Positions 5,782 through 30,551 are shown, numbered from the stretch's first letter. The stretch is DNA of 33,491 nt from an uncultured Clostridia bacterium (GCA_946619755.1 CAMOMI010000007.1:1-33491), one strand, 5' to 3'. Notes: generated from the letters alone by a model not told the origin. Program-made: numbers and translations.

Positions 5782-5808
5782 AAGAAAAAACTTTACGAAT
5801 GTAAAGTT
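5782..5808 (-). terminator. Rho-independent terminator of the surface-protein gene pair
   Basis: Perfect IR AACTTTAC-GAAT-GTAAAGTT (5789-5808), T-run on the minus-strand exit; overlaps the stop codon at 5807. Confidence 0.8.
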
Positions 5809-7348: not shown

Positions 7349-7376
7349 TACCATCAGCTCCTTCGTTTATTACATT

Positions 7377-8774: not shown

Positions 8775-8800
8775 CTTTATCACTCCTCTATTCATATTTA

Positions 8801-8829
8801 ATAATATCATTATATTTTTTAAAATGCAA
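8801..8829 (-). promoter_or_regulatory. SigmaA-type promoter for TasA-like gene
   Basis: Minus strand TTGCAT - 17 nt - TATTAT. Confidence 0.7.
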
Positions 8830-11659: not shown

Positions 11660-12724
11660 TTATTCTAAATATTTGTTATCATCTAGTTTTACATCGCTAA
11701 TTGATTCAAATTTTTTAGTAATTTTATCTGAAGTTATATTTAGTGCATCGACATCTTTGTTGACGGTTTCAATACTTCTTGCTAATTTATCCCATCTTTC
11801 TTTATATCTCGAAAATTCAATACCTAATTTAGTTAATTCATCATGGACAACTTTGGCGTATTTATCTCTTTCCATATTTTTTAGTAATACTTGAATAGTT
11901 GTTAGAGATGATATTAAAGTGGTTGGTGAAGTTATCCAAACGTTTCTTTTATAAGCATATTCAATTAAATCGTTATGATAAGCGTTTATTTCAGCAAAGA
12001 TAGCTTCAGCTGGTAAAAACATAATAGCTTGATTAGAGGTTATACCGGGAATAATGTATTTGCTACTGATGGCATCAATATGTTTTTTGACATCAGCTTT
12101 AAATGCCTTTTCATACATAGAACGTTCGCTTTGACTAAGTGACTTATCGACCATAAGACGATAATTTTCAAGTGGAAATTTTGAGTCAATAGCTACCGTG
12201 CCTAATGGTTCTGGCGTAAAGACAACAGCATCAGCAATAGTTGTATTTGGCAGTGTATATTGAAGACGATATATCTTGTCATTTTTTTCACCAAAGACAC
12301 TTACTAAGATGTGTTTTAAATTAACTTCGCCAAAAATACCTCTACTCTTTTTATCAGTTAAAATACTTTGAAGAGATACAATATCACCTGATAGATTTTC
12401 AATTTTCTTTTGAGCTTCATCAATTTTTGATAATCTTTCTAAGACACTAGTAAATGTTTTGTTTGTTCTAGTAAAATTTTCGTCCAATCTTTCATTAACT
12501 TTATCGTTTATATAGTTTAATCTTTTATCTACTTTTTCTTCTAATCTATCAAAATCTTCAGTCATACTTTTTGATAAATCATTTCTAAAATCGGACAATT
12601 CTTTAATAGTTGTAGTTTCGACACGACCTAATTTTTCAATTAAACTATTATTGCCTCTAAATAGTAAGATAATAATTAATATTATTATAATTACTAGAAG
12701 ACCAATTATTATATATTCCAACAT
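11660..12724 (-). CDS. rmuC: DNA recombination protein RmuC family
   Basis: N-terminal TM, coiled coil, nuclease-like core (GIFGEVNLKHIL...AVAIDSKFPLENY region; LPAEAIFAEI). Confidence 0.93.
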   Translation of the reverse strand: MLEYIIIGLLVIIIILIIILLFRGNNSLIEKLGRVETTTIKELSDFRNDLSKSMTEDFDRLEEKVDKRLNYINDKVNERLDENFTRTNKTFTSVLERLSKIDEAQKKIENLSGDIVSLQSILTDKKSRGIFGEVNLKHILVSVFGEKNDKIYRLQYTLPNTTIADAVVFTPEPLGTVAIDSKFPLENYRLMVDKSLSQSERSMYEKAFKADVKKHIDAISSKYIIPGITSNQAIMFLPAEAIFAEINAYHNDLIEYAYKRNVWITSPTTLISSLTTIQVLLKNMERDKYAKVVHDELTKLGIEFSRYKERWDKLARSIETVNKDVDALNITSDKITKKFESISDVKLDDNKYLE

Positions 12725-12748: not shown

Positions 12749-13036
12749 TTATTTTAAAGTATTTTTAAAGTATAAATAGCCTTCTTTGACATAATAGGTA
12801 TTATACCCAAACATATTTAATCTATCGCTTATTTCTTTACTTTGATGACCATAATTACAATATAGATAATACCTTTCATGTTTATTTAAATATAATGAAT
12901 AATTTGATAATAAGCTATAATATGGAATATTTAAGGCATTTTTTATATGTCCTTCATTATAACTATAATTATCTCTAATATCAATTATTATTGGATTGTT
13001 AATTTTTGATAATTCAGATATACTTATTTCATTCAT
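12749..13036 (-). CDS. Rhodanese-like domain protein
   Basis: IIDIRDNYSYNEGHIKNALNIPY and active-site loop YLYCNYGHQSKEI; start at MNEISISEL preferred. Confidence 0.85.
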   Translation of the reverse strand: MNEISISELSKINNPIIIDIRDNYSYNEGHIKNALNIPYYSLLSNYSLYLNKHERYYLYCNYGHQSKEISDRLNMFGYNTYYVKEGYLYFKNTLK

Positions 13037-13095
13037 ATTATCACCTAGTATTATTATATTCGCTAGGATTTTACGCAATAAGTTATAAAGTCATA

Positions 13096-13120
13096 GAAAA
13101 AGAAAAGATTACTCTTTTCT
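13096..13120 (-). terminator. Rho-independent terminator of FNT transporter gene
   Basis: AGAAAAGA-TTAC-TCTTTTCT with minus-strand T-tract; overlaps the stop codon at 13109. Confidence 0.7.
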
Positions 13121-13837
13121 TAGATAGTATACTGATATACCTAAAATCGTGCCGCCGATGATATTACCAATAGTTACTGGTAATAAATTATTTATGAATA
13201 ATTTCATTAATGTTATGCCACCATCTAATAAATATCCAAGGGATAGATATGACATATTAGCAACACTATGTTCAAACGATAAAGCGACAAAGGTAAATAT
13301 TGGTAAGAAAATTACAATTACTTTCTCGGTTATTGTATTAGCATTAGAGGCTAAGAAAACAGATAAACATACGAGAAAATTGCAAAGAATGCCTAAAATA
13401 ATCGCTTCAATAAAACTAAATGATATTTTTGCATTGGCTATTACAGATATTTTATCAGATAAAACATCTCTTAAAGGAGTATTTACTATTAATAGCGATA
13501 TAATTAATGATCCAAATAAGTTTCCTAGATAGACAACTAACCAATTTCTTAATAATTCTTTTAAAGTTATATCTTTTTTTAATAATGGTATTACCAATAA
13601 GGAATTACCAGTAAATAGTTCTGTCTTCATTAAAATTACTAGGATTAACCCTATTGGAAATACTAAAGCAGATATTAATTTTGATACACTATAATTCGTA
13701 ATTGAAATTGATACCACTGTCGATAAAATACCAGCTAAGGCAATGAATATACCGGCGTATGTGGCCAAAATAAATGTTTTGATTTTTTTATTGTTTATTT
13801 TTCCTTTAGCAATATTTAAGTAATTATTAATTTCCAT
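13109..13837 (-). CDS. Formate/nitrite transporter (FNT/FocA) family protein
   Basis: FTGNSLLVIPLL, NWLVVYLGNLFGSL, CNFLVCLSVFLA, SFEHSVANMSYL motifs. Confidence 0.88.
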   Translation of the reverse strand: MEINNYLNIAKGKINNKKIKTFILATYAGIFIALAGILSTVVSISITNYSVSKLISALVFPIGLILVILMKTELFTGNSLLVIPLLKKDITLKELLRNWLVVYLGNLFGSLIISLLIVNTPLRDVLSDKISVIANAKISFSFIEAIILGILCNFLVCLSVFLASNANTITEKVIVIFLPIFTFVALSFEHSVANMSYLSLGYLLDGGITLMKLFINNLLPVTIGNIIGGTILGISVYYLRKE

Positions 13838-13847
13838 TGTTATTCAC

Positions 13848-16097
13848 CTACTCATCACTGAAGAAATCATCAAAGAAATTATCATCATCGTTCTTGTTGT
13901 TATATACTTCGGTATTTTGTTTAGATAATTCGGCAATATTAGCCTTATCTCTTGATTCAGACTTATCATTTATTTCACTAGTTGGTATATTTATAGTAGG
14001 TTCTGATAAGATAACATTATTATTTGGTTGTGCTTGGCTAGATTTTTCTTCGACAATTATTGGAGTTTTAACAGTTTGAGGAATAACTTCTTGTTTCTGT
14101 TCAGTAACCATTCGATTGTTAGCTTCTTCGGCTTCTTTTTCTTTTCTTTCTTCTTCTTCTAATTCAGCAATTTTGGCATCTATTCTTTTTACCAAATCAT
14201 CGACATTAAATCCGCCACTTTCTTCACGAGGCATGCCAGAGCCTGAAAATGGATTAGGCATCCCCATCGCAAATGGATTTGGACTAAACATTGGGTTATT
14301 CATACCACTTGTCATTGGATTTAGCGATTGACCACCATTATTTGAAGTATCACCCATCATGGCAGCCATTTTTTTCTTTTTCATTTCTTTGACATATTCT
14401 CTTATATCAAATAAAGCGACTTCTTTCTTTTCTCTAGTCGGATAAGCGGCTTTAGCGTATTTTTTACCCCAATCCATTTTGAAATTAGGAACTAATTTTG
14501 TTTTAAATGGCATTGTCCTTAGTCTTAATGAAATAGTTTCAAACTGTTGTAATCTTTGTAAATCACTAACAGTTACTAATGGTGTTGAAGCTGTCTTATC
14601 TTTTTCTTTAGACTTCTTTTCACCACATAATTTACTTAATTCTTCAAGTGCTTGTAATTCATTGCTTATTAAGTACATAATATTACAGTTACCTTTAATT
14701 GTTTCAGCATTTTCTTTTCCATAAACTTGGGTTAACTGAGCATAGTTCTGAATAATAAAGGTAAATCTAATTAATCTTGAACGAGCAGCAGTTACCATCG
14801 TAGTAACATCTTTAAGAGGAGGCATATTAGCAAACTCATCTAAAATAAAATTAGTTCTATATGGTAATTTTCCACCAGATTCTTGAGCAACATCAATTAA
14901 TGTTTCATAAACTTGTTTAATAAAGATTGTAGCAAGTGGATGTAATGTTTTCTTTTCATCTTGAACAATCATGAAGACAGCTGTTTTTTGTCTGCCAATT
15001 TCTTTCATGTCGAAGTCACTATAGCTTAACATTTCAGATAAATTATCACGTGATGAGAATAATTTGATTTTTTGTTTAAATGTTGATAGGACTCCTTGTT
15101 TTGTATCTTCAGCTGAATAAACAGTACCTGAAGCGTTTACATAAGCAGGACGTGATGGATCTTTAGAATTAAAATATTCTTTAATATAATTGTTATTTGG
15201 TCCACCAAATTTTTCTTCACCTAAACTTGACATCAAGTTCATGCTATTTAAGTTAATCTGTTCTTCAGTGGCATCTTCAAATAATCCAAGAGCAAGACCA
15301 GTAAAATAGTCAGCTGCTGATTTTTCCCAAAATGGATCAGCATTTCCATTCTTTTCTTCATACAAAATATTTAATGCTAGGTCATCTAAAAGTTCAATAG
15401 CTTTATCAGTATTACCTTCTTTATATAATTGATAAGGCAAAGCCATGGGATTCCAACTATTACCATTTTGTGGACTACGAAAGTTTAAAATAACTATATT
15501 ATAGCCTCTTTCTTTTAACATAGTGGCTGTTTGTTCATATATTTCACCTTTAGGGTCGGTTATGATCATTGATTCACTATGTTTAGCTAAAGAGTAAACC
15601 ATTGGGAAAACGACAATTTGAGTTTTACCACTACCAGTAGAACCAACGATGATGTTATGAGCTTCACCATTATCAACCCATAAGTTTTTACCATCGTTAA
15701 TAACGACTAATCCCGCTGCATCTGCTTTATAGGCTTTTGGGTCTACTTTTACCAATTGTTTCTTTACGTCATTTTTTTTAGCCCAACTTGAATAGCCATC
15801 ATTCTTTTTACTACCGAAACTAAATCCGAAACCAGATTCTCTATCAAAGAAATATGAACTAACAGCTGTAAAAATACCAATTAATGCTAAAAAGAATAAT
15901 ATGAATGTAGCAGCAATATATTTAGGAGCAAACCCTTTAAAAGGATTTAAACCATAAAAATATCCAAAGTTTGCTAAATAACTAGCATTTACAACTACTA
16001 ATGAGCATAATAATAATAAAAATACACAAAATATACCAAAAATTATAACATCTTTAGGTTCTGCGCTAAATTTCATTTTATACACCTCGCTAATCAT
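13848..16097 (-). CDS. VirD4/TraG-type type IV coupling protein
   Basis: Two N-terminal TMs, Walker A IIVGSTGSGKTQIVVFP, DPKGEIYEQTA, Walker B NFILDEFANMPPL, plus long disordered acidic C-terminal tail. Confidence 0.92.
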   Translation of the reverse strand: MISEVYKMKFSAEPKDVIIFGIFCVFLLLLCSLVVVNASYLANFGYFYGLNPFKGFAPKYIAATFILFFLALIGIFTAVSSYFFDRESGFGFSFGSKKNDGYSSWAKKNDVKKQLVKVDPKAYKADAAGLVVINDGKNLWVDNGEAHNIIVGSTGSGKTQIVVFPMVYSLAKHSESMIITDPKGEIYEQTATMLKERGYNIVILNFRSPQNGNSWNPMALPYQLYKEGNTDKAIELLDDLALNILYEEKNGNADPFWEKSAADYFTGLALGLFEDATEEQINLNSMNLMSSLGEEKFGGPNNNYIKEYFNSKDPSRPAYVNASGTVYSAEDTKQGVLSTFKQKIKLFSSRDNLSEMLSYSDFDMKEIGRQKTAVFMIVQDEKKTLHPLATIFIKQVYETLIDVAQESGGKLPYRTNFILDEFANMPPLKDVTTMVTAARSRLIRFTFIIQNYAQLTQVYGKENAETIKGNCNIMYLISNELQALEELSKLCGEKKSKEKDKTASTPLVTVSDLQRLQQFETISLRLRTMPFKTKLVPNFKMDWGKKYAKAAYPTREKKEVALFDIREYVKEMKKKKMAAMMGDTSNNGGQSLNPMTSGMNNPMFSPNPFAMGMPNPFSGSGMPREESGGFNVDDLVKRIDAKIAELEEEERKEKEAEEANNRMVTEQKQEVIPQTVKTPIIVEEKSSQAQPNNNVILSEPTINIPTSEINDKSESRDKANIAELSKQNTEVYNNKNDDDNFFDDFFSDE

Positions 16098-16145
16098 TTA
16101 AATTATATCATACAAGATTAAAACTATCAAGAAAAATGAATGATA

Positions 16146-16868
16146 TTAATCATCCATTTCACTATTCTTTTTCACCATATTTTTAAATATAAAATACCCT
16201 ATTACCATAATAACTAATAAGATACCACAAAAGGCATAATATGTTATGTTGTTATTACGGCGTTCATTATTGTTTGGTTTGATATCTTTTTTATCATCCG
16301 ATTTGGTAGCATTGTCTGGATTATCATTTATAAGAATTAAATTTATTCCTTTATCATGATTACTGTTTGTTAAATGCCATGTATATGTTTTACCATTTAC
16401 ACTATCAGCATTATGAGTTTTTACTCCCCTATCAACAGTTATGTTGATAGAGACACTATCTAAAGTTGGATACTTATCAAAACAAATGGTATTTTGACTG
16501 CTAGAAATAATGGTACTATCTGGATAATTTTGAACAGTAAATGTTTTATAACAGTTCGATACAGCAGTAGAATTTTGATATCCATTTGTTGTAAAATCTG
16601 AGGTAAAGGTTAAAGTATTTCCTTGTAAAGTATATTTGTAGATATTGGAATTATTTTCTAAAGTGCTATCTGGATCTGTTCCTACATTAAAATCGTCTTT
16701 ATCGACAGGTACTTGCCAATTATTGTTAAAGCTACTTATTTCTGTAGCATCACTTCCAATTAATCTTATTTCTTCTTTATATTTATTGCCATCTATAGTA
16801 ACATTATATTGACAAGAACAACCTGTTAAAAACAATAAGACACTAATTATTAATAATCTTTTTTTCAT
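16146..16868 (-). CDS. T4SS-locus lipoprotein with C-terminal TM helix
   Basis: Signal peptide with lipobox LTGC (MKKRLLIISVLLFLTGCSC), extracytoplasmic domain, C-terminal TM YYAFCGILLVIMVIGYFIF. Confidence 0.75.
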   Translation of the reverse strand: MKKRLLIISVLLFLTGCSCQYNVTIDGNKYKEEIRLIGSDATEISSFNNNWQVPVDKDDFNVGTDPDSTLENNSNIYKYTLQGNTLTFTSDFTTNGYQNSTAVSNCYKTFTVQNYPDSTIISSSQNTICFDKYPTLDSVSINITVDRGVKTHNADSVNGKTYTWHLTNSNHDKGINLILINDNPDNATKSDDKKDIKPNNNERRNNNITYYAFCGILLVIMVIGYFIFKNMVKKNSEMDD

Positions 16869-16879
16869 ATTTTCCCCTT

Positions 16880-18691
16880 TTAGTAATTATTATCGACATT
16901 ACTACGATTGTTATAGAAATTATCTAAATGAAGAATTCTAGTTGGTGTATTACCACAATTTCCTGAGTGCATATTCCAAGGTCTTATAATCAATCCATAA
17001 CTACCTGTTGATTCTGCAACATAATATCTTTGACTTGATTCATCAACCGATACAATCATCTGAACGTGACAACCATTTGAATTAATTAAATCCCCAGGTT
17101 GGCCAATACATGATGAGTTTCCTATATCACAGCTATCTCCACTAAAGGCACTATGGAAAGTTGCTGTTGTATGTCTTGAAAAATTATATCCACCATTTCT
17201 GATTGCCCAGCTTGCAAAACCGCTGCAGTCGAATCCAGAGTAATAGAATGTTGATCCATGTGACGAAGTCGATGCACTAGTCTGACTTCCAAAGTTCGGA
17301 TCAACACCAATATGTTGATATTTTCCACCCCAATAATATGGGATACGTATATGACCACCATCATATAGAAAATTAACTAGTGATACGGCGGCGGTAACAA
17401 CGCCAGCACGCGAGCCAGCACCATTTTTTATGACATTATCATGAATTGCAGCATTCAAAGTTTCAATTGATGATCCATTCGCAGCTAAGTATGAAGACAG
17501 ATTTTGATGCAACTCTGTAGCATTGGTAGTATCTTTGATTTCTAGTCCAGCAATGGATGACATAAATGAGCCTGTACTTATGGTAATGTTATTATCTGAT
17601 AAATAATACTCTAAAATTTCGTTATGTTTTAAGCCTTGTTCAGTGGCTAAATAATATGAGCCCCATTGGCTTAAGCCACGCCCATGATTTCCTGCACATG
17701 TTCCCTGTTTCCATGATTCACTGATACCACTCTGGCTATCTACCCAACTACGAGGAATTTTTTGATTTGCTTGTTTAATTGTATAATAATTATCATCGAC
17801 AGCAATACTGCAAAAAGCATCATAACCAACACTAAATAATTCATTATTTGAAAGGAGAACTTGTCCTTTTGTTTCTTCAACTGCTTGATATATTAAATCT
17901 GCATAAGGATAAACACTTCTATCGGTTATATCCCTAAAAACTTGTTTACGATCACTTGATTCAATTGTACAATTATCATCATGTGTTAAAAAGTAAGTTC
18001 TAGCAGCTAAGGCAAATTCTTTATATACTTCTAAATTATTGAACATTCCGACTTCCGCACTGACAACGCCAGCAACATAGTCTTCAAGGGCATATGTACC
18101 AGTACCAGTGACCTCATATCCCTTGCTCTTATCTGTCATGATAACTGTAACTTCTTCACAGCGCATAGCATAGTATCCACTTGTTGCTAAGCCACCAGAC
18201 GAGCTTTCTTCGTCATCGACAAAAATGACTATAAACATAAGAAGAATTACCGTTATTGGCAGTAATATTAAAATTAGTTTTAAGACCAATGGATTAGTTA
18301 ACTTTATTTGGGGTAGTCCTGATTTGCTAGTAGTAGCAGTAGTAGAAGAAATATTCGATTTTTGATTTGTATTGCTTTTACTTTGAGTTGTTGTTGAATT
18401 ATTAGCAGCGCCACTTGGTGATAAAGCATTATTAGCTGCATCTAACGCTCCTGAATTATCTAATTTTTGGGCAGCATTTCTAAATCTACGATTTTTATTA
18501 GCTCTTTTAGCGCCACGCGTTAATACTCGATCTCCTAGTTTAGTTTTACTTAAACCATCTACAACTTTACCACCAAGTTTGCCTCCATATGCGGTTGCTA
18601 CACCTTGAGCGGCAGTTTTTAATGTTTTTTTACTAGATTCTAATTCTGCAGCTTGTTGTTCCTGTTGCTCTATTAATTCTTCTTCATCCAC
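16880..18691 (-). CDS. Membrane-anchored bifunctional wall hydrolase: SpoIID/LytB domain + NlpC/P60 domain (VirB1-like role)
   Basis: TM LILILLPITVILLMFIVIF; SpoIID motifs VVSAEVGMFNNLEVYKEFALAARTYFL and HGRGLSQWGSYYLA; NlpC/P60 motifs YYWGGKY, GFDCSGFASWA, QPGDLINSNGCHVQMIV. Confidence 0.88.
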   Translation of the reverse strand: MDEEELIEQQEQQAAELESSKKTLKTAAQGVATAYGGKLGGKVVDGLSKTKLGDRVLTRGAKRANKNRRFRNAAQKLDNSGALDAANNALSPSGAANNSTTTQSKSNTNQKSNISSTTATTSKSGLPQIKLTNPLVLKLILILLPITVILLMFIVIFVDDEESSSGGLATSGYYAMRCEEVTVIMTDKSKGYEVTGTGTYALEDYVAGVVSAEVGMFNNLEVYKEFALAARTYFLTHDDNCTIESSDRKQVFRDITDRSVYPYADLIYQAVEETKGQVLLSNNELFSVGYDAFCSIAVDDNYYTIKQANQKIPRSWVDSQSGISESWKQGTCAGNHGRGLSQWGSYYLATEQGLKHNEILEYYLSDNNITISTGSFMSSIAGLEIKDTTNATELHQNLSSYLAANGSSIETLNAAIHDNVIKNGAGSRAGVVTAAVSLVNFLYDGGHIRIPYYWGGKYQHIGVDPNFGSQTSASTSSHGSTFYYSGFDCSGFASWAIRNGGYNFSRHTTATFHSAFSGDSCDIGNSSCIGQPGDLINSNGCHVQMIVSVDESSQRYYVAESTGSYGLIIRPWNMHSGNCGNTPTRILHLDNFYNNRSNVDNNY

Positions 18692-18722
18692 TCAAATCAC
18701 CGCCTTTACTACTAGCTATTAA

Positions 18723-20510
18723 TTATAATCCACCACCTGAACCAAATGAATCTAATTCTTCTTGAGTTAATGTTACATCTATTTGCATTCTTCGATTACC
18801 GCATACAAATAGTGCTTCTCCTTGATTATATCTCTTTATATTTTCTTTTTCATTATCATTTAAATCGACAAGCATGGCTAAATCTTCAGCCGCTTGTTTT
18901 CTTAATCCCATAATTAAGTAATATGAGGCATTATCAAAAATGGCTTTACCATGCATTATCATATTATTAGCAACGAAGTCTGATGGTTGTTGAGTAATTA
19001 TAATAGTTCCTGTATTATATTTTCTTGCTCTTCTTTGTACTTGGGCTAAAAATTCAGCTCCAAGCTCATTTTGTGAACCTAATAATACATGGGCTTCGTC
19101 AACTGATAAAACTGTATTTTTATTTGGATTTAAACATAAACTCCAAGCATATTTTAATACATTGAATAATAAAGCATTTCTAATATTGACATCTGAATTC
19201 ATTACTTCTTTAATATTAAATACTAAATATTCATTTGTAGTATCAATAGTTGTATGGCCATTGAAATAATATTGTAGTTCTTTTACTAATGGTCTTAATT
19301 TCAATTCAAGTCTTTCCAAAACATCTCTTTCGTGAGTTTTTTCGGTCATAGATGTTAATTTACTTGTAACAGTAATATAAACATCTTGCATAATTGGAAA
19401 ATCTTTTGATGTAAAGTTAGAAAAATTAGTATTATATGCAATTCCAAATCTAGCATATGTTTCAAGAGCCATTTCGCCAAATAAAGTTAAAACATCTTCT
19501 TCAATGTTAGGTGAGTAATACTTCATAAAAGCTTTCAATGTTTGAAGAGTTGATGTTAATATTGTATAACCTAATCCTTGATTTTGAATAGTTTCATCAT
19601 CACTATCCATAACAATTTCTAGTGGGTTAATCATACCATATTGACCACCCTTACCAAGATCAACAACTTCACCGCCATAGGCTTTAGTCATTTCAGTTAG
19701 TTCACCTTCAGGGTCAACACAAACAATCTGATAACCATTTCTAATATGACTACGTAAAATTAGTTTAGCAGCTGTTGATTTACCACTACCAGATGAACCT
19801 AAAATAATCATATTGGCATTATTACGGTTATTTTCTTTTTTTATTTGATATAAGAATTGATTGAATAAAACTACTCCACCAGAAAACTCAACACCTAATA
19901 ATGTTGATAAGCCATCATCTTTTAAACTATCAAAAATGAATGGGTACATTGAGGCAATTGTTGGAGATGGCATTATAGAACCTACTCTATCTTCAATTAT
20001 TTGTTTACCAAAGATAGGAAGCATAGATTTTAAAACTCTTTCTTGTTCAAATCTTAATTGAATACCTGTCATTTCCATACCATCAAGATATGTTTTTAAG
20101 TTAGTTCTTTTATTTTCTAATTCTTCTTTTGTATCAGCAGTAATCATTATATGTAATTGAAAATCGAAACTCCTTGATTGGGATTGCGTATATTGTTGAA
20201 TAAATGTTTCTAGAGAATCAATATCTTGTCTAATTCTCTCTAGAATTGTATTATCCCTTTCATTTTGGTATCGTTGTCTAAGTTCGGCTAACTCATTATT
20301 TAACATTTTGTGTAAAATTGTTGATGAAACTGGTATATGTTTTATAACAACTTTAACACCTGGTATATTTGTTAAGTCTGATAAATAGCCATCATCTATA
20401 ATTCTTGGATATGAAATAACTGTTAAAATAGTAGCATATTTACCACTTATAACGAAATCAGCTGCGTTAAATTGTAATCCCTTAGGGGCAAGTTGTGATT
20501 TAATGTTCAT
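18723..20510 (-). CDS. VirB4-family T4SS ATPase, C-terminal portion
   Basis: Walker A MIILGSSGSGKSTAAKLIL, Walker B TVLSVDEAHVLLG, RRARKYNTGTIIITQQPSDF. Confidence 0.92.
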   Translation of the reverse strand: MNIKSQLAPKGLQFNAADFVISGKYATILTVISYPRIIDDGYLSDLTNIPGVKVVIKHIPVSSTILHKMLNNELAELRQRYQNERDNTILERIRQDIDSLETFIQQYTQSQSRSFDFQLHIMITADTKEELENKRTNLKTYLDGMEMTGIQLRFEQERVLKSMLPIFGKQIIEDRVGSIMPSPTIASMYPFIFDSLKDDGLSTLLGVEFSGGVVLFNQFLYQIKKENNRNNANMIILGSSGSGKSTAAKLILRSHIRNGYQIVCVDPEGELTEMTKAYGGEVVDLGKGGQYGMINPLEIVMDSDDETIQNQGLGYTILTSTLQTLKAFMKYYSPNIEEDVLTLFGEMALETYARFGIAYNTNFSNFTSKDFPIMQDVYITVTSKLTSMTEKTHERDVLERLELKLRPLVKELQYYFNGHTTIDTTNEYLVFNIKEVMNSDVNIRNALLFNVLKYAWSLCLNPNKNTVLSVDEAHVLLGSQNELGAEFLAQVQRRARKYNTGTIIITQQPSDFVANNMIMHGKAIFDNASYYLIMGLRKQAAEDLAMLVDLNDNEKENIKRYNQGEALFVCGNRRMQIDVTLTQEELDSFGSGGGL

Positions 20511-21057
20511 TTGGCAACACCACCTTACTATCTGTTGTCATTCCCCCATTTAAGAAACTATCTAAGACAACTCTTAAATCTGTATTAGATGTCTGGACTG
20601 AATCTAGGCCTGCATTTGATAAACCCATCATCAGTGTTCGCAACCTTTTTTGAATTATATCTGGATTTTTTTCTTTAAATAATATATAAAACTCTGTATC
20701 TGTTACATTATCACGCATAAAATCATTAGCTTTTTGAATATCTTGGCTAATTATTTTTTTAATACGTGGATCACCTTCTTGGTTATATTGAATTTGTAAA
20801 GTAGCTAAATAATTGGAAATATCAACAGGTCTATCAGCAGATATTAACCAAAACTCAAAATCAATTGAATCATAAAAAACTCTTAGTTGAGAAATAATAT
20901 TATTTCTAGAATTTGAATCTAAGATAAAGATATTTCTAGGTCTTATTTTAACTCCTGTTACTTTCATTTTGTTATCTAATTCAATCATCCCATTAGCAAT
21001 ATTTTTAACAGGTAACCAGTCTTCAGTATATTTACTATTTATCTTCTTTGAACTCAT
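20500..21057 (-). CDS. VirB4 N-terminal-domain protein (separate ORF)
   Basis: WLPVKNIANGMIELDNKMKVTGVKIRPRNIFILDSNSRNNIISQLRVFYDSIDFEFWLISADRPVDISNYLATLQ resembles the N-terminal domain of Gram-positive VirB4/TraE ATPases; overlaps both neighbours. Start MSSKK chosen. Confidence 0.75.
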   Translation of the reverse strand: MSSKKINSKYTEDWLPVKNIANGMIELDNKMKVTGVKIRPRNIFILDSNSRNNIISQLRVFYDSIDFEFWLISADRPVDISNYLATLQIQYNQEGDPRIKKIISQDIQKANDFMRDNVTDTEFYILFKEKNPDIIQKRLRTLMMGLSNAGLDSVQTSNTDLRVVLDSFLNGGMTTDSKVVLPNEH

Positions 21058-21355
21058 TTTGCATACACCAACCTCTCCAAATATAATTTTTTCTTCCATT
21101 ATAATAATTTAGAATACTTTGAATAGCACACAAAAAATTGTGATAATTTGGTACTGGTAATACCAAAAAGACACATATCAACATTGGTAATAAAGAGAGT
21201 ATCATCAACCATGTTGCAGAATTTGAGAATATAGCTAGTAGAGCAACTGTAACAATTGTTCCACTAGCTAATATTACTAAATCAGGCATAGGTCTAAACA
21301 TTCCTAATACTAATGTTGATCTTTTTGTGTTTGCAGGTACTAAACTACCATTCAT
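21035..21355 (-). CDS. PrgI/VirB3-like membrane protein
   Basis: Small two-TM protein (NTKRSTLVLGMFRPMPDLVILASGTIVTVALLAIF...LPVPNYHNFLCAIQSILNYYNGRKNYIWRGW) directly upstream of the VirB4 genes. Confidence 0.75.
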   Translation of the reverse strand: MNGSLVPANTKRSTLVLGMFRPMPDLVILASGTIVTVALLAIFSNSATWLMILSLLPMLICVFLVLPVPNYHNFLCAIQSILNYYNGRKNYIWRGWCMQNEFKEDK

Positions 21356-21384
21356 AAAGTATCACACTCCTTTTTTCTTTAAAA

Positions 21385-24300
21385 CTAGCTATTACCACCA
21401 TTAAAGTCGTTAGCAGCCTTTTGAGCGGCAGTAGCATTACTTGTCTCACTATATCTCTTTTCTTCTTTAAGCTGTTTAAGAATACGTTCATATTCATTTC
21501 CACTATTAATAGCAGCCGTTTTAATTTCATCAAGCGTTTCAAAGTCTTCAATTTTGCCACTTAAGAATGCAGACAATATAGTAGGTTTATCTTTTAATTT
21601 TTCTCTCATTTTTTCTACCGCTTCAGGATTTTGTCTTAAAACTTTTAAACTTTCAAGAGCATCTTGTACTTTTTCAACAGCTACTTTATCATATTTTTTG
21701 CTCTTGATATGATCAATGCTTTCACCAGCGGCCATGTCTTTAAGAATTGATGAATATTGATATCTTGCAGCATTCTTTTGGACTTGTGTTACGGCGTAAT
21801 CAGCATCAGCAGCTTCTTTTGCCTTAGTTTGTGCATTTGCTCTTAATGCATCAGCTTGAGCTTTTGCAGTATCATATGTTGCTTTGTCTGCATCACTTAA
21901 ACTATCACGATCTTTTGTCAAAATAGTGTTAGTGCCTTCAAAATCATCGACTCTCTTAGCGGCAGCTTCAGCTTCAGCTTTGGCTCTTTCAGCACGTCCA
22001 ACATACTTTCTGTGTAAGTCTCCAATTGTTTCATTTGCTCCAATATCAGCGTATTGTGTACTTCCATCAGCATTAGTTAAACCAGTTTTAATTTTTGCAG
22101 TTGGTGACACTACTTGAGTAAGTTCATTTATTTTTTCTTTCAATCTATCTTCAGCACTATCAGCAGTTGATTTAACATCTTTAGTAAGTGATGATTGTGC
22201 TTCGAGTTTCTTAATTTGTGGCTCTAAAGCCTTATTGTGTAATACGGTTCTTTGATATTGCGTTTCAATACCAGTTTTCTTTTCTATTTGTGCAGCTGTT
22301 CGATCAATAACACCTTGAATGCCACCAGCTCCACCGGCATCATAATATTTATTTAATTCAACAACTTGTTTAACATCTTTTTTAACGGCATCATCAACTT
22401 TTTTAGTGATATCTTCAAGTTTAGTTGCACCGGCTCCAGCCACAATTGTTTTAACAGTAGCACCTATGCCACCTATTGCTGCACCCGCAATTGATTTATA
22501 TTGTTTATTACTATCTTCAGCTACTTGTTCATTTGCTTGTTGAATCTGTGGTTCAAGATCTTTGATAAGTTGATTACGCTTATTTTCTGCTTTAACATTT
22601 TCTTCATTAAGGTAGTTAGCACGAGCAGTTTCATATTGAGTTTGAGCAGCTGTGTAATTTTCTTGTGCTGCTGTTATTCTTGCTTGATCGCCACTTGCAA
22701 TTGCGCTTTCAAGATTTTGTCTTGCTGTTTCTGCTGCTTGTCTATTTGCTTCAACAACTTTAGCCTCTTCTTTATTACTTTTGCGACTATTGGCATCACT
22801 ACTTCCATATTTCTGCATATTGGCAGTTTCTTTATCGAATTCAATTTGTGCCTCAGCTTGTCGTTTTGTTGCTTCAGCAATTGCTGTTGGATCTCCGCTT
22901 GCTTTTTTTTCATCTAAGTCTCTATTAGCGGCCGCTAAATTTCTTCCAGCATTTTGGAATCTAGTGAAATCAGCTTGATATATTTCATTTGCGCCTAAGC
23001 CACTAGTATTAATTTTTTCTTTTATTGCGTTTCTTTCTTTAGTTAAACGTTCAACTTCAGCTTGATCGCCTCTTTGTCTAGCATCATGTAATCTTCTGTC
23101 TATGTCTACTAAATCATTTAATCCGCCTCTTTGTTTTTGATATCTTGATAAAGCCTCATCTCTTGCTCTTGTTAAATTATCAATTTCTGATTGAGGTGCA
23201 TTTCTTCTTTTGGCATCATTTAATCTTCGATTAGCAAGTCTTAAATCATCTTCTGCTCTATTTAAATCATCAGTTCTGTTACTTAAATCTTGTAAGTTTC
23301 TAGCTTTACGTCTGTTTTCTCTTCTCTGTCGCCATTGCTCTTGGCCCTCTTTAGTAAGTATTGATTTTTGACCATTTGCTCTATTTCTGTTGACATTACT
23401 TACAATACGTCTTGCCATATTTGTTCCAAGTTTAGTAGCTCCTAAGGCAGCACCAAGAGTTCTGGCTGTTAGAGCGCCAACACGTTCGCCAGCTTTGAAG
23501 CCAAAGCCTATGCCAGCAGCACCACTTGATGGGAATAGTTCTCCCAATAGTTTTGGAGCACGACTTGCAAAAGTTAATAGTCCCATAATAAGAATAATAT
23601 ATGCAAATGTTTCCAAAGTCTTTGAAATTTGCAAGCCTTCAAATAACGTTCCACTATCATAAGCCGTTCCAATAATTTCAATTAATAATAATATAAAGTA
23701 AATAATAGCAATTCTAATAAATAAATCTACATAAGTTGTTAGGCATTGTTTTGTCCATTTTTGAAATATGCCATCTTTTTTTGGTAAGATGTATCCCATA
23801 ATGGCAATTGGAGCCATTACTTGTAAAAATAGTAATTGGGCATATCTTATACCAACATCAACACTATATAATGCGAGAACATATAAAATGAACGCACCAA
23901 CGCCAATGGCAAAGAAGCCATTAAAACTAATAGCTGGTGTATAACCATCAAAACGAATCAAAGATGATTCTACAGTTTCATTTATACCTTCTAATAAGTT
24001 TATTTTACCATTATTTCTTAGATTGCTTAGATTCTCTTCCACTTGCGCTGCAGCATCGGCACAATTACCGCTACCTGAAGCACATGCTTCTTCATCTATC
24101 CCATAGAACAAGCCTAAAATATTAGCAGAAAAAACTCCGCCAACTTGTTCGACGTTTGTATTAGTTTTACCTAAAATTATTTTTGAAATAACTTGATTTT
24201 CAATAATTTTACTTTGTAATGAATAGGCTAAAGAAAAAATTTTAGGTACAAATGCAATTAAAATAATTACAATAACTATTCTTTGTAAAATATTGCCAAC

Positions 24301-24573
24301 GCCCTTTTCTTTATCTTCAATGTTATCTGGTGTAATAACATATTTTACAAATTCAAACGTTATATAAAAAGTCATAACGATTGTTAGCACCATTGTTACT
24401 CTTTGATATATTGGTTCAACAGCATTGGTTGATAAAAAATTTACTTTAGCTAATGTTATAAATAATTGATAAACGCATGATATTAGCCAATATATTAAAT
24501 TACAAAGAAGGGCACCTAGTCCCCTTAAGCCTTGTCTCCAAAGTGGTAATCCGACGGCTACCAAAAAATTCAT
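21385..24573 (-). CDS. VirB6/TrbL-like polytopic membrane protein with long coiled-coil C-terminal extension
   Basis: Multiple TMs in the first about 340 aa (including QLLFLQVMAPIAIMGYILPKKDGIFQKWTKQCLTTYVDLFIRIAIIYFILLLI) followed by about 700 aa of charged/Ala-rich helical sequence. Confidence 0.85.
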   Translation of the reverse strand: MNFLVAVGLPLWRQGLRGLGALLCNLIYWLISCVYQLFITLAKVNFLSTNAVEPIYQRVTMVLTIVMTFYITFEFVKYVITPDNIEDKEKGVGNILQRIVIVIILIAFVPKIFSLAYSLQSKIIENQVISKIILGKTNTNVEQVGGVFSANILGLFYGIDEEACASGSGNCADAAAQVEENLSNLRNNGKINLLEGINETVESSLIRFDGYTPAISFNGFFAIGVGAFILYVLALYSVDVGIRYAQLLFLQVMAPIAIMGYILPKKDGIFQKWTKQCLTTYVDLFIRIAIIYFILLLIEIIGTAYDSGTLFEGLQISKTLETFAYIILIMGLLTFASRAPKLLGELFPSSGAAGIGFGFKAGERVGALTARTLGAALGATKLGTNMARRIVSNVNRNRANGQKSILTKEGQEQWRQRRENRRKARNLQDLSNRTDDLNRAEDDLRLANRRLNDAKRRNAPQSEIDNLTRARDEALSRYQKQRGGLNDLVDIDRRLHDARQRGDQAEVERLTKERNAIKEKINTSGLGANEIYQADFTRFQNAGRNLAAANRDLDEKKASGDPTAIAEATKRQAEAQIEFDKETANMQKYGSSDANSRKSNKEEAKVVEANRQAAETARQNLESAIASGDQARITAAQENYTAAQTQYETARANYLNEENVKAENKRNQLIKDLEPQIQQANEQVAEDSNKQYKSIAGAAIGGIGATVKTIVAGAGATKLEDITKKVDDAVKKDVKQVVELNKYYDAGGAGGIQGVIDRTAAQIEKKTGIETQYQRTVLHNKALEPQIKKLEAQSSLTKDVKSTADSAEDRLKEKINELTQVVSPTAKIKTGLTNADGSTQYADIGANETIGDLHRKYVGRAERAKAEAEAAAKRVDDFEGTNTILTKDRDSLSDADKATYDTAKAQADALRANAQTKAKEAADADYAVTQVQKNAARYQYSSILKDMAAGESIDHIKSKKYDKVAVEKVQDALESLKVLRQNPEAVEKMREKLKDKPTILSAFLSGKIEDFETLDEIKTAAINSGNEYERILKQLKEEKRYSETSNATAAQKAANDFNGGNS

Positions 24574-24589
24574 AATATCACTTCCCTAT

Positions 24590-25393
24590 TTATATGCTGC
24601 AACTACTATATAAGCCTTCCCATACAATATCTGCTAGATACATTATTACATTTATTAATACCGGAATTAAAAATATAGCTACGCCAATAATAACTCTCTT
24701 TATAAAAGTCATTTGGGCTTTTTTCATATCATCTTCTTTTTGTGCAATAACTGCTTTAAAGAAATCTAATGTGCCAAGAATAATAATTAGTATTGGAATG
24801 ATAATTTTTGGGTACATTAATACTTCATTTATAATATAAGCAATACTACTTGGATCATCTTTTGAGCCAAATATTGCTCCGCAATCAACTGTAGATTCAT
24901 CGCCTTCAAGTGCTATAGCCATTTTTTCATTTTTTATATAGCTTACATTTTTAGTTATTCCAGCTTCAAATTCTTCTTTTGTAATGCTTTTTTTGTCACT
25001 TGTCCATGCGGACATTTTATTAACTTGTTTAGAAGCACTGGCAAAAGAATTTGCATCTTGAGAATTATCAAATCCCCATATACCATCAGATGCCCACCAC
25101 AAAGCTCTTTCTTTTCTTCTATATACAATATAGTTAGGGCAAGCATTAGAAATTTTGTTTACTGTTAAACCAGTGTAATTATCTGATTTACTGGAATTCT
25201 TATTAATTAAAGGTTCATTATCGGCTAAAATATTTGTTTTAGTTCCCCTTTGTCTAATCGTAAATTGATTATTATTTGAATTATATTCAACAGAAACTTC
25301 TGTAGTTTGGTAATAACATACTTCTGCATATATATTTTTCATTCCAAACAACATTATTAATAACATAAATAATATGTAATTTTTATGTTTCAT
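24590..25393 (-). CDS. Secreted-domain protein with C-terminal VirB2-like TM hairpin
   Basis: Signal peptide (MKHKNYILFMLLIMLFGMKNIYAEVC), about 150-aa ectodomain, C-terminal hairpin IIIPILIIILGTLDFFKAVIAQKEDDMKKAQMTFIKRVIIGVAIFLIPVLINVIMYLADIV. Confidence 0.8.
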   Translation of the reverse strand: MKHKNYILFMLLIMLFGMKNIYAEVCYYQTTEVSVEYNSNNNQFTIRQRGTKTNILADNEPLINKNSSKSDNYTGLTVNKISNACPNYIVYRRKERALWWASDGIWGFDNSQDANSFASASKQVNKMSAWTSDKKSITKEEFEAGITKNVSYIKNEKMAIALEGDESTVDCGAIFGSKDDPSSIAYIINEVLMYPKIIIPILIIILGTLDFFKAVIAQKEDDMKKAQMTFIKRVIIGVAIFLIPVLINVIMYLADIVWEGLYSSCSI

Positions 25394-25440
25394 AAAGCAC
25401 CTCTTTTTTGGCATGAGTAAAATACCTCGTATACATTATA

Positions 25441-25473
25441 ACATAAAAAAATAGAAAAAGAAATAACTTTTTC
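25441..25473 (-). terminator. Terminator/attenuator directly after the VirB2-like gene
   Basis: GAAAAAG-AAATAA-CTTTTTC (25454-25473) followed on the minus strand by TATTTTTTTA. Confidence 0.7.
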
Positions 25474-25501
25474 CATTATTTTTTTGGCATTTTTATGTCA
25501 A

Positions 25502-25828
25502 TTATCTTTTTTCTAAACTATAGCATGCTAAGGCATTTTGAGATTCAGAATTTGCTTGCTCATTGCCTGCATTTGTAAGCACTCCGAAAGCAACACTTAC
25601 AATCCATGGAACTAAGAAAACAACAATGGCATAAATAACTCTTTGTATAGCCATCTTTTGAGCACTTTTAATATCGTCTTCCTTGCCTGCCATAACTGCT
25701 TTACCTAAATCTATTACTAATAATACGATAAGAATAATGATAATAGCAGCTTGAATTAGAGGGATAACTCCAAATTTAATAAGTCTAATGACTGGTCTTA
25801 ATGTTTCACAAGCATCTAATAATAACAT
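25502..25828 (-). CDS. VirB2/TrbC-like small two-TM protein (candidate pilin/channel subunit)
   Basis: IPLIQAAIIIILIVLLVIDLGKAVMAGKEDDIKSAQKMAIQRVIYAIVVFLVPWIVSVAFGVL; RBS GGAGGAG. Confidence 0.8.
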   Translation of the reverse strand: MLLLDACETLRPVIRLIKFGVIPLIQAAIIIILIVLLVIDLGKAVMAGKEDDIKSAQKMAIQRVIYAIVVFLVPWIVSVAFGVLTNAGNEQANSESQNALACYSLEKR

Positions 25829-25855: not shown

Positions 25856-25884
25856 ATAATATAATAATTTTTCTTTAATGTCAA
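25856..25884 (-). promoter_or_regulatory. Consensus sigmaA promoter for the T4SS locus
   Basis: Minus strand TTGACA - 17 nt - TATTAT, followed by GGAGGAG RBS. Confidence 0.85.
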
Positions 25885-25895
25885 TATTTTACATT

Positions 25896-27167
25896 TTATT
25901 TTGTGTATTCAAATTCATAATCAAGAATTTTGATAATATCGCCTTCTTGAATATTCATTTTTTCTAATTCTTCATCGACTCCCATACTTCTTAATTTTTT
26001 GGCAAATCTAGAAATAGCTTCTTCCGTGTTAAAGTTTATCATTTTAAATATTTTTTCAATTTTTTCACCTTTTACTATAAAAGTATGATCATTTTCTTTA
26101 ATTACGGTAAAAGGTTTTTCTTGTTTAAATTTATATAATACATGCTTTTCTTGGATATCTTCATCATATAATACTTCTTCTTTAGTATTCTTTACTAATT
26201 GTGATAAAGCGCTAATCAAATTATCTAAATTTTGATTATTTAACGCTGATATTTCATATACTTCTTTGTTTGTCTTCTTTTTAAATTTTTCTAAATTTTC
26301 TGATGCTCCAGGTAAATCCATTTTGTTAGCAATAATTATTTCTACTTTATTTAATAATTTAGGACTAAATACTTCTAATTCTTTTCTGATTACTTGATAG
26401 TCTTCATATGGATCTCGCCCTTCACTTGCTGACATATCAATAATATGAGCAATGATTTTAGTTCTTTCAATATGTTTTAAGAATTTATGGCCTAGACCAA
26501 CGCCAGTACTTGCTCCTTCAATTAGTCCTGGTAAATCAGCAATGACAAAATTATTATCTTTAGTAACAACAACACCTAAGTTTGGTGATAATGTTGTAAA
26601 ATGGTAAGCAGCTATTTTGGGGTTAGCGTTAGTTATCATCGATAATAGTGTTGATTTACCGACACTTGGTAAACCAACTAAGCCAACATCAGCAAGCATT
26701 CTTAATTCAACTTTTATCTTTCTTATCTCACCTGGTTCTCCGCGTTCGGCAAAAGATGGGCATGGATTACTTCTTGTAGCAAGAGTGACGTTTCCTCTAC
26801 CACCTTTGCCGCCATAAGCAACAATGACTTCTTCTCCATGTTTTGTAAGATCGGCAATGACTGCTCCAGTGTCATAATCTTTAATTGTTGTGCCAACAGG
26901 TACTTTTATAATTTTATCTTCAGCATAAGAACCTGATTTATTTTTTCCTTCGCCATTTTCACCGGCTTCACCTTTAATCTTTTTTTGATAACGTAAATCA
27001 AGCAATGTTCGCAACCCTTCATCGGCTTTAAAGATAATATCGGATCCTTTACCACCATTACCTCCATTAGGGCCTCCCATCGGAACAAATTTTTCTCTTA
27101 GAAAAGCCATACAGCCATCTCCACCACGGCCAGCTTCAACTTCCATTACTACTTCATCTATGAACAT
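25896..27167 (-). CDS. obgE: GTPase Obg
   Basis: Obg domain (FIDEVVMEVEAGRGGDGCMAFLREKFVPMGGPNGGNGGKG), G-domain VGLVGLPSVGKSTLLS, NKMDLP, C-terminal OCT domain. Confidence 0.98.
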   Translation of the reverse strand: MFIDEVVMEVEAGRGGDGCMAFLREKFVPMGGPNGGNGGKGSDIIFKADEGLRTLLDLRYQKKIKGEAGENGEGKNKSGSYAEDKIIKVPVGTTIKDYDTGAVIADLTKHGEEVIVAYGGKGGRGNVTLATRSNPCPSFAERGEPGEIRKIKVELRMLADVGLVGLPSVGKSTLLSMITNANPKIAAYHFTTLSPNLGVVVTKDNNFVIADLPGLIEGASTGVGLGHKFLKHIERTKIIAHIIDMSASEGRDPYEDYQVIRKELEVFSPKLLNKVEIIIANKMDLPGASENLEKFKKKTNKEVYEISALNNQNLDNLISALSQLVKNTKEEVLYDEDIQEKHVLYKFKQEKPFTVIKENDHTFIVKGEKIEKIFKMINFNTEEAISRFAKKLRSMGVDEELEKMNIQEGDIIKILDYEFEYTK

Positions 27168-27307: not shown

Positions 27308-27835
27308 ATGAAAAGAATAAAAAAATGGGGCGTTATTATTTCGTTTGTTTTAGCGATAATATTACATTTTATATATGAAATATTTCCGAATACTTTTTTT
27401 AGTATTATAGCGCCTGTTAATGAAAGTATCTGGGAACATATGAAATTAATTATTAGTGCTAGTTTAATTTTCAGTATATTTGAGTATTTTATGTATAAAA
27501 AGAAAGATATTGCATTTAATAATTTTATCTTTAGTTATGCAATATCTATAATACTTGGTATTATTATTTATTTAATTATATATATTCCGCTTAATGATAT
27601 ATTTGGACATAAAGCATATATTGCTATTTCCTTATTGTTTTTGATATTTATAGTAATCCAAGTTATTAGTTATTATTTATTAAACATTAAGAGAATAGTT
27701 CATATTAAATATTTGGGAATTCTTTTAATAATAATTATATATTTTATATTTGGATATTTTACTTATCATCCACCTAAAATTAATTTGTTTTATGATTACA
27801 TACATCAAGGATATGGAATTATTAAATCTTCTTAA
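27308..27835 (+). CDS. DUF6512-like multi-TM membrane protein
   Basis: Polytopic; HFIYEIFPNTFFSIIAPVNESIWEHMKLI is typical of this uncharacterised family. Confidence 0.7.
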   Translation: MKRIKKWGVIISFVLAIILHFIYEIFPNTFFSIIAPVNESIWEHMKLIISASLIFSIFEYFMYKKKDIAFNNFIFSYAISIILGIIIYLIIYIPLNDIFGHKAYIAISLLFLIFIVIQVISYYLLNIKRIVHIKYLGILLIIIIYFIFGYFTYHPPKINLFYDYIHQGYGIIKSS

Positions 27836-29249
27836 CAGCTGGTGAGCAAATTATATTACCATCAAGATCAAATCTTGAACCGTGGCATGGACAATCCCAA
27901 GTTTTTTCTTCTTTATTAAATACTAATGAACATTTCATATGAGGACATAATAATTTTACTTTATGTTCTATTCCATTTTTATCAAGATATACACCATAAA
28001 GAAAACCTTTTATTTTTACATAGTGGGGATTGCTTTTATGAAATAAACTTTCAAAATAGGCTTTTAAATAATGGAATATGCCAATAATTGAATTAATAAT
28101 TAAAGGAATATTAATTCTTCTTGGATTAAATAAAGTGATATATTTGTTATCTTTATTTTGAATTAAATCTGCAATTATCTTAGCACCAATGGTAGCACTT
28201 GTCATACCCCAAGCATTATATGCTGTCGATATATAAATATTTTCTTTAATTTTACCAATTATCGGTAATTTATCATTACTTACAATATCTTGATTTATCC
28301 AAGTGTATTCTGGTTTAACATTAAAGTATTTTATAAAATCAGATTGATGTTTTTTTAAGTTTTTTCCATAATCTATTTTACTAGTTAATCGGTGATCAAA
28401 CGAGCCATATATAAGATAATTTTTATAGTATCTTACTGAATACAATGATTTATCAATATTTATAAATGTTTTATTTTGGGGATTATTTATTTTAGCAACT
28501 GAAACATATTCTCTTTCTATATATGTTCTAAGGGGAAAGAAATAAGGAATTATAAAGAAAGGATAATGACATGCTAATACTATTTTTTTTGTATTAATTA
28601 AGCCATTATTAGTTAATACAATGTAATTGTTATTATCTTTTTTTATACTTTTAGCAATGGTATTTTCATATATAGTTGTTTTAGACTTAACTATATTTTT
28701 TAATGACATTAAATACTTTATAGGGTTAAATGTATAAGTATTGGATACTGAAAAGCCATATTTAATATGATTATCTTGATATTTTTTAGGGTTTTCTTTA
28801 TATGAAGATAAAATATTTTTTTCAGTTATAAGTTTGTTAATATTTTTCTTGTCATTTGTAAATAAGATAGATTGTACTAATTGTTTATCACACTCAATAT
28901 TGTTGTCATTAATAATTTTATTTAATAAAGTTATTGCATCTTTTTTTGATTCATAGTATTTTTTTGCAATACGGCTGCCGTGCATTCTCGTTAATTTTTG
29001 ATAAATATCTTGTTCAATATATGATATTTTAGCAGTTGTTTTAGCAGTAGTGCCATTTCCTATCTTATCTTTATCAATAACTGTAATTTTATAATTAGTA
29101 TCTTTTAGAAAATATGCAGTTGTAAGACCAGTTATGCCTGCTCCAATTATTAAAATATCGGTATTGATGTTATTAGCTATTTCTTGATTATTTGATTTAT
29201 CAGTTAGATAATTATTCCAAATTGATATATTTTTCATATAATCCTCCAT
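27822..29249 (-). CDS. FAD-dependent oxidoreductase with C-terminal Rieske [2Fe-2S] domain
   Basis: Rossmann DILIIGAGITGLTTAYFL; Rieske motifs CPHMKC...WDCPCHGSRFDLDG. Confidence 0.92.
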   Translation of the reverse strand: MEDYMKNISIWNNYLTDKSNNQEIANNINTDILIIGAGITGLTTAYFLKDTNYKITVIDKDKIGNGTTAKTTAKISYIEQDIYQKLTRMHGSRIAKKYYESKKDAITLLNKIINDNNIECDKQLVQSILFTNDKKNINKLITEKNILSSYKENPKKYQDNHIKYGFSVSNTYTFNPIKYLMSLKNIVKSKTTIYENTIAKSIKKDNNNYIVLTNNGLINTKKIVLACHYPFFIIPYFFPLRTYIEREYVSVAKINNPQNKTFINIDKSLYSVRYYKNYLIYGSFDHRLTSKIDYGKNLKKHQSDFIKYFNVKPEYTWINQDIVSNDKLPIIGKIKENIYISTAYNAWGMTSATIGAKIIADLIQNKDNKYITLFNPRRINIPLIINSIIGIFHYLKAYFESLFHKSNPHYVKIKGFLYGVYLDKNGIEHKVKLLCPHMKCSLVFNKEEKTWDCPCHGSRFDLDGNIICSPAVKKI

Positions 29250-29557: not shown

Positions 29558-29935
29558 TTATTTGATATCTTCAACCCAAAGACCATGCTTATTACAATAT
29601 GAATATATTTTACCATTTGAAATTTTATCAAATATAACTTTTGGTTCATCGCCAGGAGCTAAATATACATATTCTTCTCTATCTTCTGTAAGAAGACAAA
29701 ACCATTCAATATAATGATTCTCTTCCATAACATGATTTACAGTTACAATTAGTTTGTCATTATCTATCATATATGTTGGTTTATGTTTTTCAATAGCTGC
29801 ATCGGCACTATTTGCTTTCATTACTTTCATAGGTTTTCCACAGCAAGTAAGGCCACAATCATCACAATTACAATCAGTTATTACTTTTACTGTTGCACCA
29901 CAAGACATACATTTTTTTACTATCAATTCTTTCAT
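29558..29935 (-). CDS. Desulfoferrodoxin / superoxide reductase
   Basis: N-terminal CxxC...CC rubredoxin-like site (KCMSCGATVKVI...CGLTCCGKPM) and SOR iron ligands EKHKP, VNHVMEENHYIEW, YSYCNKHGLW. Confidence 0.93.
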   Translation of the reverse strand: MKELIVKKCMSCGATVKVITDCNCDDCGLTCCGKPMKVMKANSADAAIEKHKPTYMIDNDKLIVTVNHVMEENHYIEWFCLLTEDREEYVYLAPGDEPKVIFDKISNGKIYSYCNKHGLWVEDIK

Positions 29936-30515: not shown

Positions 30516-30551
30516 AAAAAAGTAGAATTATTTTCTTTTAGATAATTCTAC
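30516..30551 (-). terminator. Rho-independent terminator of the LysM/SpoIID-like cluster
   Basis: Perfect 10-bp stem GTAGAATTAT / ATAATTCTAC, minus-strand T-run; overlaps the stop codon at 30528. Confidence 0.8.

Follow-up and report, generated by a model that had tools for sequence, protein, structure and literature searches.

The 33,491-nucleotide stretch of DNA analyzed here (the window) comprises the entire contig C7 of a metagenome-assembled genome (MAG; G000) that is 827 kb in size and 76% complete. It carries a block of nine open reading frames (ORFs) for a Gram-positive type IV secretion system (T4SS) on its minus strand (positions 13848-25828), with obgE on one side and a formate/nitrite transporter (FNT) gene on the other. 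Our analysis suggests that this block is probably an ancient, domesticated conjugation apparatus, an MPF_FATA-type T4SS combined with a Tad-type pilus, which may now act as a contact-dependent delivery machine. That the locus is domesticated and no longer self-mobile is very likely. The computed support comes from its gene content, near-universal presence in single copy, vertical descent, purifying selection on the motor proteins, lack of a relaxase nearby and, in most genera, an operon-like arrangement with Tad genes. An earlier note on this DNA had described the nine-gene block and had favored a domesticated system over an active integrative and conjugative element (ICE). Both proposals held: all ORFs lie at the positions it had given, VirD4, VirB4, VirB6 and the hydrolase are backed by library matches, and the distribution, descent and absence of a nearby relaxase all speak for domestication.

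The distribution was determined by searching with the C-terminal part of VirB4 in a family sample of 147 genomes, nearly all of them MAGs, in which nearly every genus is represented. Matches occurred in 125/147 genomes, two of which (G085 and G096) matched via a fused ICE-type VirB4 only. The remaining 123 each possess one core copy of a split VirB4 of 59-85% identity. An orthologous VirD4 adds nine further carriers (G011, G014, G032, G035, G058, G061, G069, G134 and G137), whose VirB4 was probably lost in contig breaks, and in G001, genes for PrgI, VirB6 and VirB2-like proteins lie at the end of a contig. In total, about 133 of the 147 family genomes thus carry the system. We rejected the view that the absence from about 15% of the genomes is simply true loss, as contig breaks explain part of it: among the 22 genomes that were negative in the first pass, nine have an orthologous VirD4, and G001 has other parts of the locus. 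Sampling the order more densely, with every member drawn from one family, gave matches in 268/289 genomes, about 263 of which possess the core orthologue. In the rest of the class, related VirB4 proteins occur sporadically, with identities of no more than 35%, and the best match to a plasmid reaches 29%. We infer that the order is RF39 of the GTDB taxonomy, a group of gut Bacilli; close relatives come from the guts of goat, rabbit and other animals. A sporadic presence in relatives together with an empty site, which the earlier note had named as evidence against domestication, was not seen.

The same note had proposed comparing gene tree and species tree, and in 28 genomes VirB4 indeed follows PolA (Mantel r 0.63; 0/5000 permutations as high). 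The two trees have 12 of 25 splits in common, VirB4 recovers 10 of the 13 PolA splits with good support, and one pair is in conflict. When VirB4 was sampled more widely, the core copies clustered together (90/84; 92% of bootstrap trees), separate from those of ICEs and plasmids. The locus is inherited vertically in the order. One locus (L055, G104:C18) additionally encodes a fused VirB4 of 778 aa (39% identical) between PrgI and VirB6, beside the core split VirB4; the tree places this fused protein as the sister of the core clade.

With respect to gene content, the block begins with two putative VirB2-like proteins, assigned by position and membrane topology: B2a (25502-25828; 108 aa), a small two-helix membrane protein with orthologues in most loci, and B2b (24590-25414; 274 aa), which has an N-terminal ectodomain and a weak match to the ICE transmembrane family NF045889 (0.006). 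These are followed by a polytopic VirB6/TrbL-like protein with a long, coiled-coil-like C-terminal extension (21385-24573; 1062 aa; PF19597, 4.5e-7) and a PrgI/VirB3-like membrane protein (21035-21355; 106 aa), recognized by its position and by an orthologue profile that matches PrgI of plasmid pBMB67 (4.8e-6). VirB4 is encoded in two parts, a TrsD-like N-terminal part (20500-21099; 199 aa; NF045975, 5.6e-15, model positions 93-277) and the ATPase part (18723-20510; 595 aa; NF045975, 4.9e-100, model positions 294-891). Next come a membrane-anchored wall hydrolase in the VirB1-like slot (16880-18691; SpoIID, 6.5e-12, and a weak NlpC/P60 match, 6e-4), a lipoprotein with the lipobox LTGC and a C-terminal membrane helix (16146-16868), and the VirD4 coupling protein of the CD1115 family, which has a long C-terminal tail (13848-16097; PF02534, 7e-57; NF045973, 3e-91). 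The lipoprotein, the PrgI-like protein and both VirB2-like proteins gave no usable match in the family libraries, and the small subunits gave none in PHROGs. The block has several features of an MPF_FATA T4SS, namely a VirB4 with intact Walker motifs, VirD4, PrgI/VirB3 together with TrbL/VirB6, and a VirB1-like hydrolase adjoining VirB4.

Walker A and B motifs are intact in all 117 VirB4 orthologues, and the Walker motifs of VirD4 in all 89 orthologues. The ratio of nonsynonymous to synonymous substitution rates (dN/dS) was measured against three close relatives, where dS is about 1 or higher and the ratios are accordingly rough. It amounts to 0.04-0.07 for VirB4 and 0.13-0.15 for VirD4, compared to about 0.05 for RmuC, and is higher at the surface (lipoprotein, 0.39-0.61; VirB6, 0.39-0.47; B2b, 0.29-0.36). 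Purifying selection thus acts strongly on VirB4 and VirD4: the engine is conserved, while the cell-surface end changes fast. The split of VirB4 into an N-terminal ORF of about 200 aa and a second one of about 600 aa recurs in 116 loci, with a 4-bp overlap in 71. The N-terminal profile matches the TrsD-like gene of pBMB67 (3.8e-27), and pK79-1-A and an S. aureus plasmid have a TrsD and VirB4 pair annotated likewise. The split is therefore neither a frameshift nor an assembly error nor a novelty, being kept in 116 loci and ordinary in plasmids of the TrsD-VirB4 kind.

The hydrolase slot swaps enzymes freely across relatives; its 48 members carry M23 (18), SpoIID (17), CHAP (11), phage-tail lysozyme (10), glucosaminidase (6) and NlpC (6) domains. 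The AlphaFold model of the lipoprotein (mean pLDDT 75) resembles LppM of M. tuberculosis (Foldseek match to 2nc8, 6.4e-6), a fold from which we draw no functional conclusion. We found no VirB8-like subunit in the window. In relatives, a protein of 297 aa is modeled as tandem NTF2-like domains with a weak Foldseek match to the VirB8-like OrfG (E 0.025); against PDB sequences, this family gave a chance match only. One fused or two separate NTF2-like proteins (families c25, c23 and c35, e.g. L087:7878-8771) accompany the M23/lysozyme version of the hydrolase, and the LppM-like lipoprotein mostly accompanies the other versions. The NTF2-like cassette and the LppM-like lipoprotein are alternative surface cassettes of one slot. 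A locus may also hold an array of as many as six VirB2-like genes (L066 and others), as has been reported for Patescibacteria.

The absence of mobility genes noted earlier was borne out, as no relaxase, integrase, replication or partition protein was detected among the 30 window proteins scanned; integrases were not searched genome-wide. Relaxase counts are based on four families, PF03432, PF18555, PF03389 and PF01076, none of which was found in the window's own MAG. Across the family sample, PF03432 occurs in 34/147 genomes, PF18555 in 20/147 and PF01076 in 72/147, together in 83, and PF03389 (MobQ) in 0/147. Of the 133 T4SS carriers, 58 have none of the four families, and the T4SS is as frequent in genomes with a relaxase (75/83) as in those without (58/64). 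In the same-contig cases checked, the nearest relaxase is 54.7 kb away from the T4SS. MobL relaxases mostly adjoin separate loci with a fused VirB4 (e.g. G052:C2, G096:C1 and G136:C13), and the genuine ICE-type T4SSs of the family differ from the core locus in just this way, having a fused VirB4 with a relaxase beside it. The marks of an ICE, i.e. a relaxase on the element, an integrase or excision module (among the window proteins scanned), a sporadic distribution and a gene tree at odds with the species tree, were not found for the core locus. The earlier caveat that a relaxase may be encoded at a distance stands in part: none of the four families occurs in the window's own MAG, and MobV relaxases are found elsewhere in half of the genomes. 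A second VirD4 (G000:C14:19357-20832, L186; also L163), 40% identical to that of the window and interrupted by five stop codons, lies on the same contig as Tad genes of G000 and is a remnant of another T4SS or ICE.

The T4SS is further linked to a Tad (type IVc) pilus, whose operon it directly follows in most genera. In 54 of the 78 loci with room, a CpaE-like gene adjoins the VirB2-like gene (median gap 58 bp), usually followed by TadE-, TadC-, TadB- and CpaF-like genes. CpaF and CpaB were identified by family matches (PF00437 and TIGR03177, respectively), TadB and TadC by profile matches to plasmid genes that are arranged in the same succession. In relatives, a Tad operon of CpaF, TadB, TadC, TadE, CpaB and CpaE is linked to the T4SS. 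In the window's genus, obgE occupies the Tad position, and the Tad operon is found on a different contig; it is complete in a genome of the same genus (G063:C20), and in the window's own genome CpaF, CpaB and TadB-like genes lie on G000:C14, where the operon is cut by the contig end. T4SS and Tad co-occur in 118/133 carriers versus 3/14 non-carriers (Fisher p 1.7e-7), a value that is inflated by relatedness and shared assembly gaps.

Taken together, the machine probably serves the bacterium itself upon cell contact, because it is a fixed chromosomal locus without the DNA-sending gene of plasmids. In our model, the relaxase would have been lost and the apparatus would have become a core chromosomal locus of an order of small-genome gut Bacilli. 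Tad pili may draw cells together, the wall hydrolase would breach the peptidoglycan, VirB6, PrgI and VirB4 would build the membrane channel, and VirD4 would recruit a substrate that the machine hands to the adjacent cell. More specifically, the function may be the delivery of a VirD4-recruited substrate, most likely a protein, into neighboring bacteria for the benefit of the host rather than for transfer of the element, which we hold at slightly below an even chance. Several observations weigh against such a delivery machine. No substrate or effector was identified, and effectors were not searched genome-wide. ComEC is kept in 133/147 genomes, including T4SS-negative ones, which keeps DNA uptake a live alternative. 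About 15 T4SS-positive genomes do not have a strong CpaF orthologue, so Tad is not obligatory. As nearly all genomes are MAGs, those in which both T4SS and Tad are missing may simply have an assembly gap common to the two. Finally, MobV relaxases are present in 72/147 genomes, including G063 from the same genus, and DNA could therefore be transferred in trans.

As the main rival explanation, Tad pilus, T4SS and ComEC may together move or take up DNA for repair or as food, comparable to Ups pili and Ced in Sulfolobales or to Tad-dependent DNA uptake in Liberibacter. We consider DNA exchange or nucleotide scavenging rather unlikely. It is a serious rival since RF39 genomes are reduced and auxotrophic (PMC6784871), RF39 bacteria reportedly cannot make nucleic acids de novo (PMC13155120), Tad pili are required for DNA uptake in Liberibacter, another bacterium without genes for nucleotide biosynthesis (PMC8513845), and ComEC is so widely retained. 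The linkage of the T4SS to Tad genes and the frequent neighbor RmuC, a member of a DNA-recombination family, fit this explanation as well. However, genomes without the T4SS retain ComEC to the same extent, the intactness of VirD4 suggests that a recruited substrate is exported, and the block contains no DNA-processing gene. Less probable still is a role as helper conjugation machine, in which mobilizable elements with their own MobV, MobP or MobL relaxase use the resident T4SS in trans. Some relaxase is indeed present in 75 of the 133 T4SS-positive genomes, about 55 of which have no listed fused ICE-type VirB4, and G063 combines MobV relaxases with the core VirB4 only. Nevertheless, the presence of the T4SS is independent of that of a relaxase, and selection for use by other elements would leave the order-wide conservation unexplained. 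An active or decaying ICE inserted between obgE and the FNT gene is highly improbable: the genes do derive from conjugation systems, but the near-universal presence, vertical tree, purifying selection, conserved neighbors and missing linked relaxase argue against it, as does the different make-up of the family's true ICE-type T4SSs.

The boundaries described earlier, obgE and the FNT gene, are correct for the window but local. ObgE (25896-27167; PF01018), the upstream boundary in the window's genus, adjoins the block in the window and two close relatives only, and the FNT gene (13109-13837; PF01226, 7.6e-71), 11 bp downstream of VirD4, in the window only; the latter is a local insertion outside the secretion system. 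Further downstream lie genes for a rhodanese-like protein (12749-13078; PF00581) and RmuC (11660-12724; PF02646), all on the minus strand. These two are the most frequent downstream neighbors, the rhodanese gene being at most 3 kb from VirD4 in 49/72 loci with room and the RmuC gene being a neighbor in 32/72, and the commoner gene context is Tad pilus operon, T4SS, rhodanese and RmuC. The flanking proteins include ScpA, Fpg, PolA, HIT, PPIase, RmuC, rhodanese, FNT and ObgE. The consensus promoter assigned to the block, a sigma-A-like minus-strand site (TTGACA-N17-TATTAT, 25856-25884), does match at 11 of 12 positions. We dropped it as strong evidence because such sites are barely above chance in the window (103 versus 83.5 +/- 7.6 in shuffles). 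Elsewhere in the window, an FAD-dependent oxidoreductase with a C-terminal Rieske domain (27822-29249) is encoded near a desulfoferrodoxin gene (29558-29935), and, notably for a bacterium with a small genome, another protein with a SpoIID domain, which bears three peptidoglycan-binding repeats (30528-31874), near a protein with five LysM domains. Three adjoining secreted or membrane proteins (5807-7354, 7377-7946 and 8007-8810) have no Pfam match; the first matches the profile of c12 (DUF6273-type) proteins from T4SS/Tad blocks of other genera.

Among known systems, the conjugative Bacillus thuringiensis plasmid pBMB67 shows the gene order MobP3-VirD4-small membrane protein-TrbL-PrgI-TrsD-VirB4 and, further on, CpaB-AAA ATPase-CpaF-TadB-TadC-TadE-like genes. 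It has a CD1115 VirD4, TrbL, PrgI, TrsD, VirB4 and CpaB-CpaE-CpaF-TadB-TadC-TadE in common with the loci of the order, but differs in being a plasmid, in the MobP3 relaxase beside VirD4 and in a VirB4 that is only 28% identical. The best profile matches for VirB4 and VirD4 are the Mycoplasma ICE VirB4 family NF045975 and the CD1110/CD1115 conjugation families, which, in contrast, belong to mobile elements, with VirB4 being one fused protein in NF045975. The Ced/Ups system of Sulfolobales, an archaeal DNA importer, is likewise a T4SS-derived, relaxase-free machinery with type IV pili. Plasmids of the pAW63/pXO2 type resemble the locus as well: pAW63 was described with homologues of VirB4, VirD4 and VirB11 (PMC1196294), and the VirB11/CpaF-type ATPase has TadB/TadC-sized neighbors, but these systems are plasmid-borne with their own DNA-processing genes. 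The ancestor was likely a conjugative plasmid of the T4SS-plus-Tad kind, as pBMB67, and, in view of the gene sets of pBMB67 and pAW63, the locus appears to be a module of this type whose relaxase was lost and which became fixed on the chromosome.

The closest precedent is the T4SS of Patescibacteria, which is relaxase-less, lineage-wide and includes genes essential for epibiotic growth of Saccharimonadia (PMC12102498). Both systems are chromosomal, of MPF_FATA-type origin and mostly without relaxase, and occur throughout lineages with small, dependent genomes; both have a TrsD-like gene with VirB4, VirB2-like arrays, hydrolases by VirB4 and type IV pili alongside (PMC12102498). In Patescibacteria, however, VirD4 is rarely near virB4, whereas here it regularly belongs to the block, which also contains the partner, a Tad pilus, and the hosts are Bacilli. 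Our literature search found no paper tying RF39 to such a system. RF39-type Bacilli are common uncultured gut bacteria with reduced genomes and many auxotrophies (PMC6784871, PMC13155120), and an order-wide contact machine under purifying selection is a testable candidate for their interaction with other cells. Tentatively, a whole order of genome-reduced gut Bacilli might use a relaxase-free T4SS coupled to a Tad pilus to live off its neighbors or to act on them upon contact, convergent with the epibiotic Patescibacteria. The locus also adds to the example of Patescibacteria another conjugation apparatus that has become part of the core equipment of a lineage with small genomes, and here the block has retained VirD4 and includes a Tad pilus.

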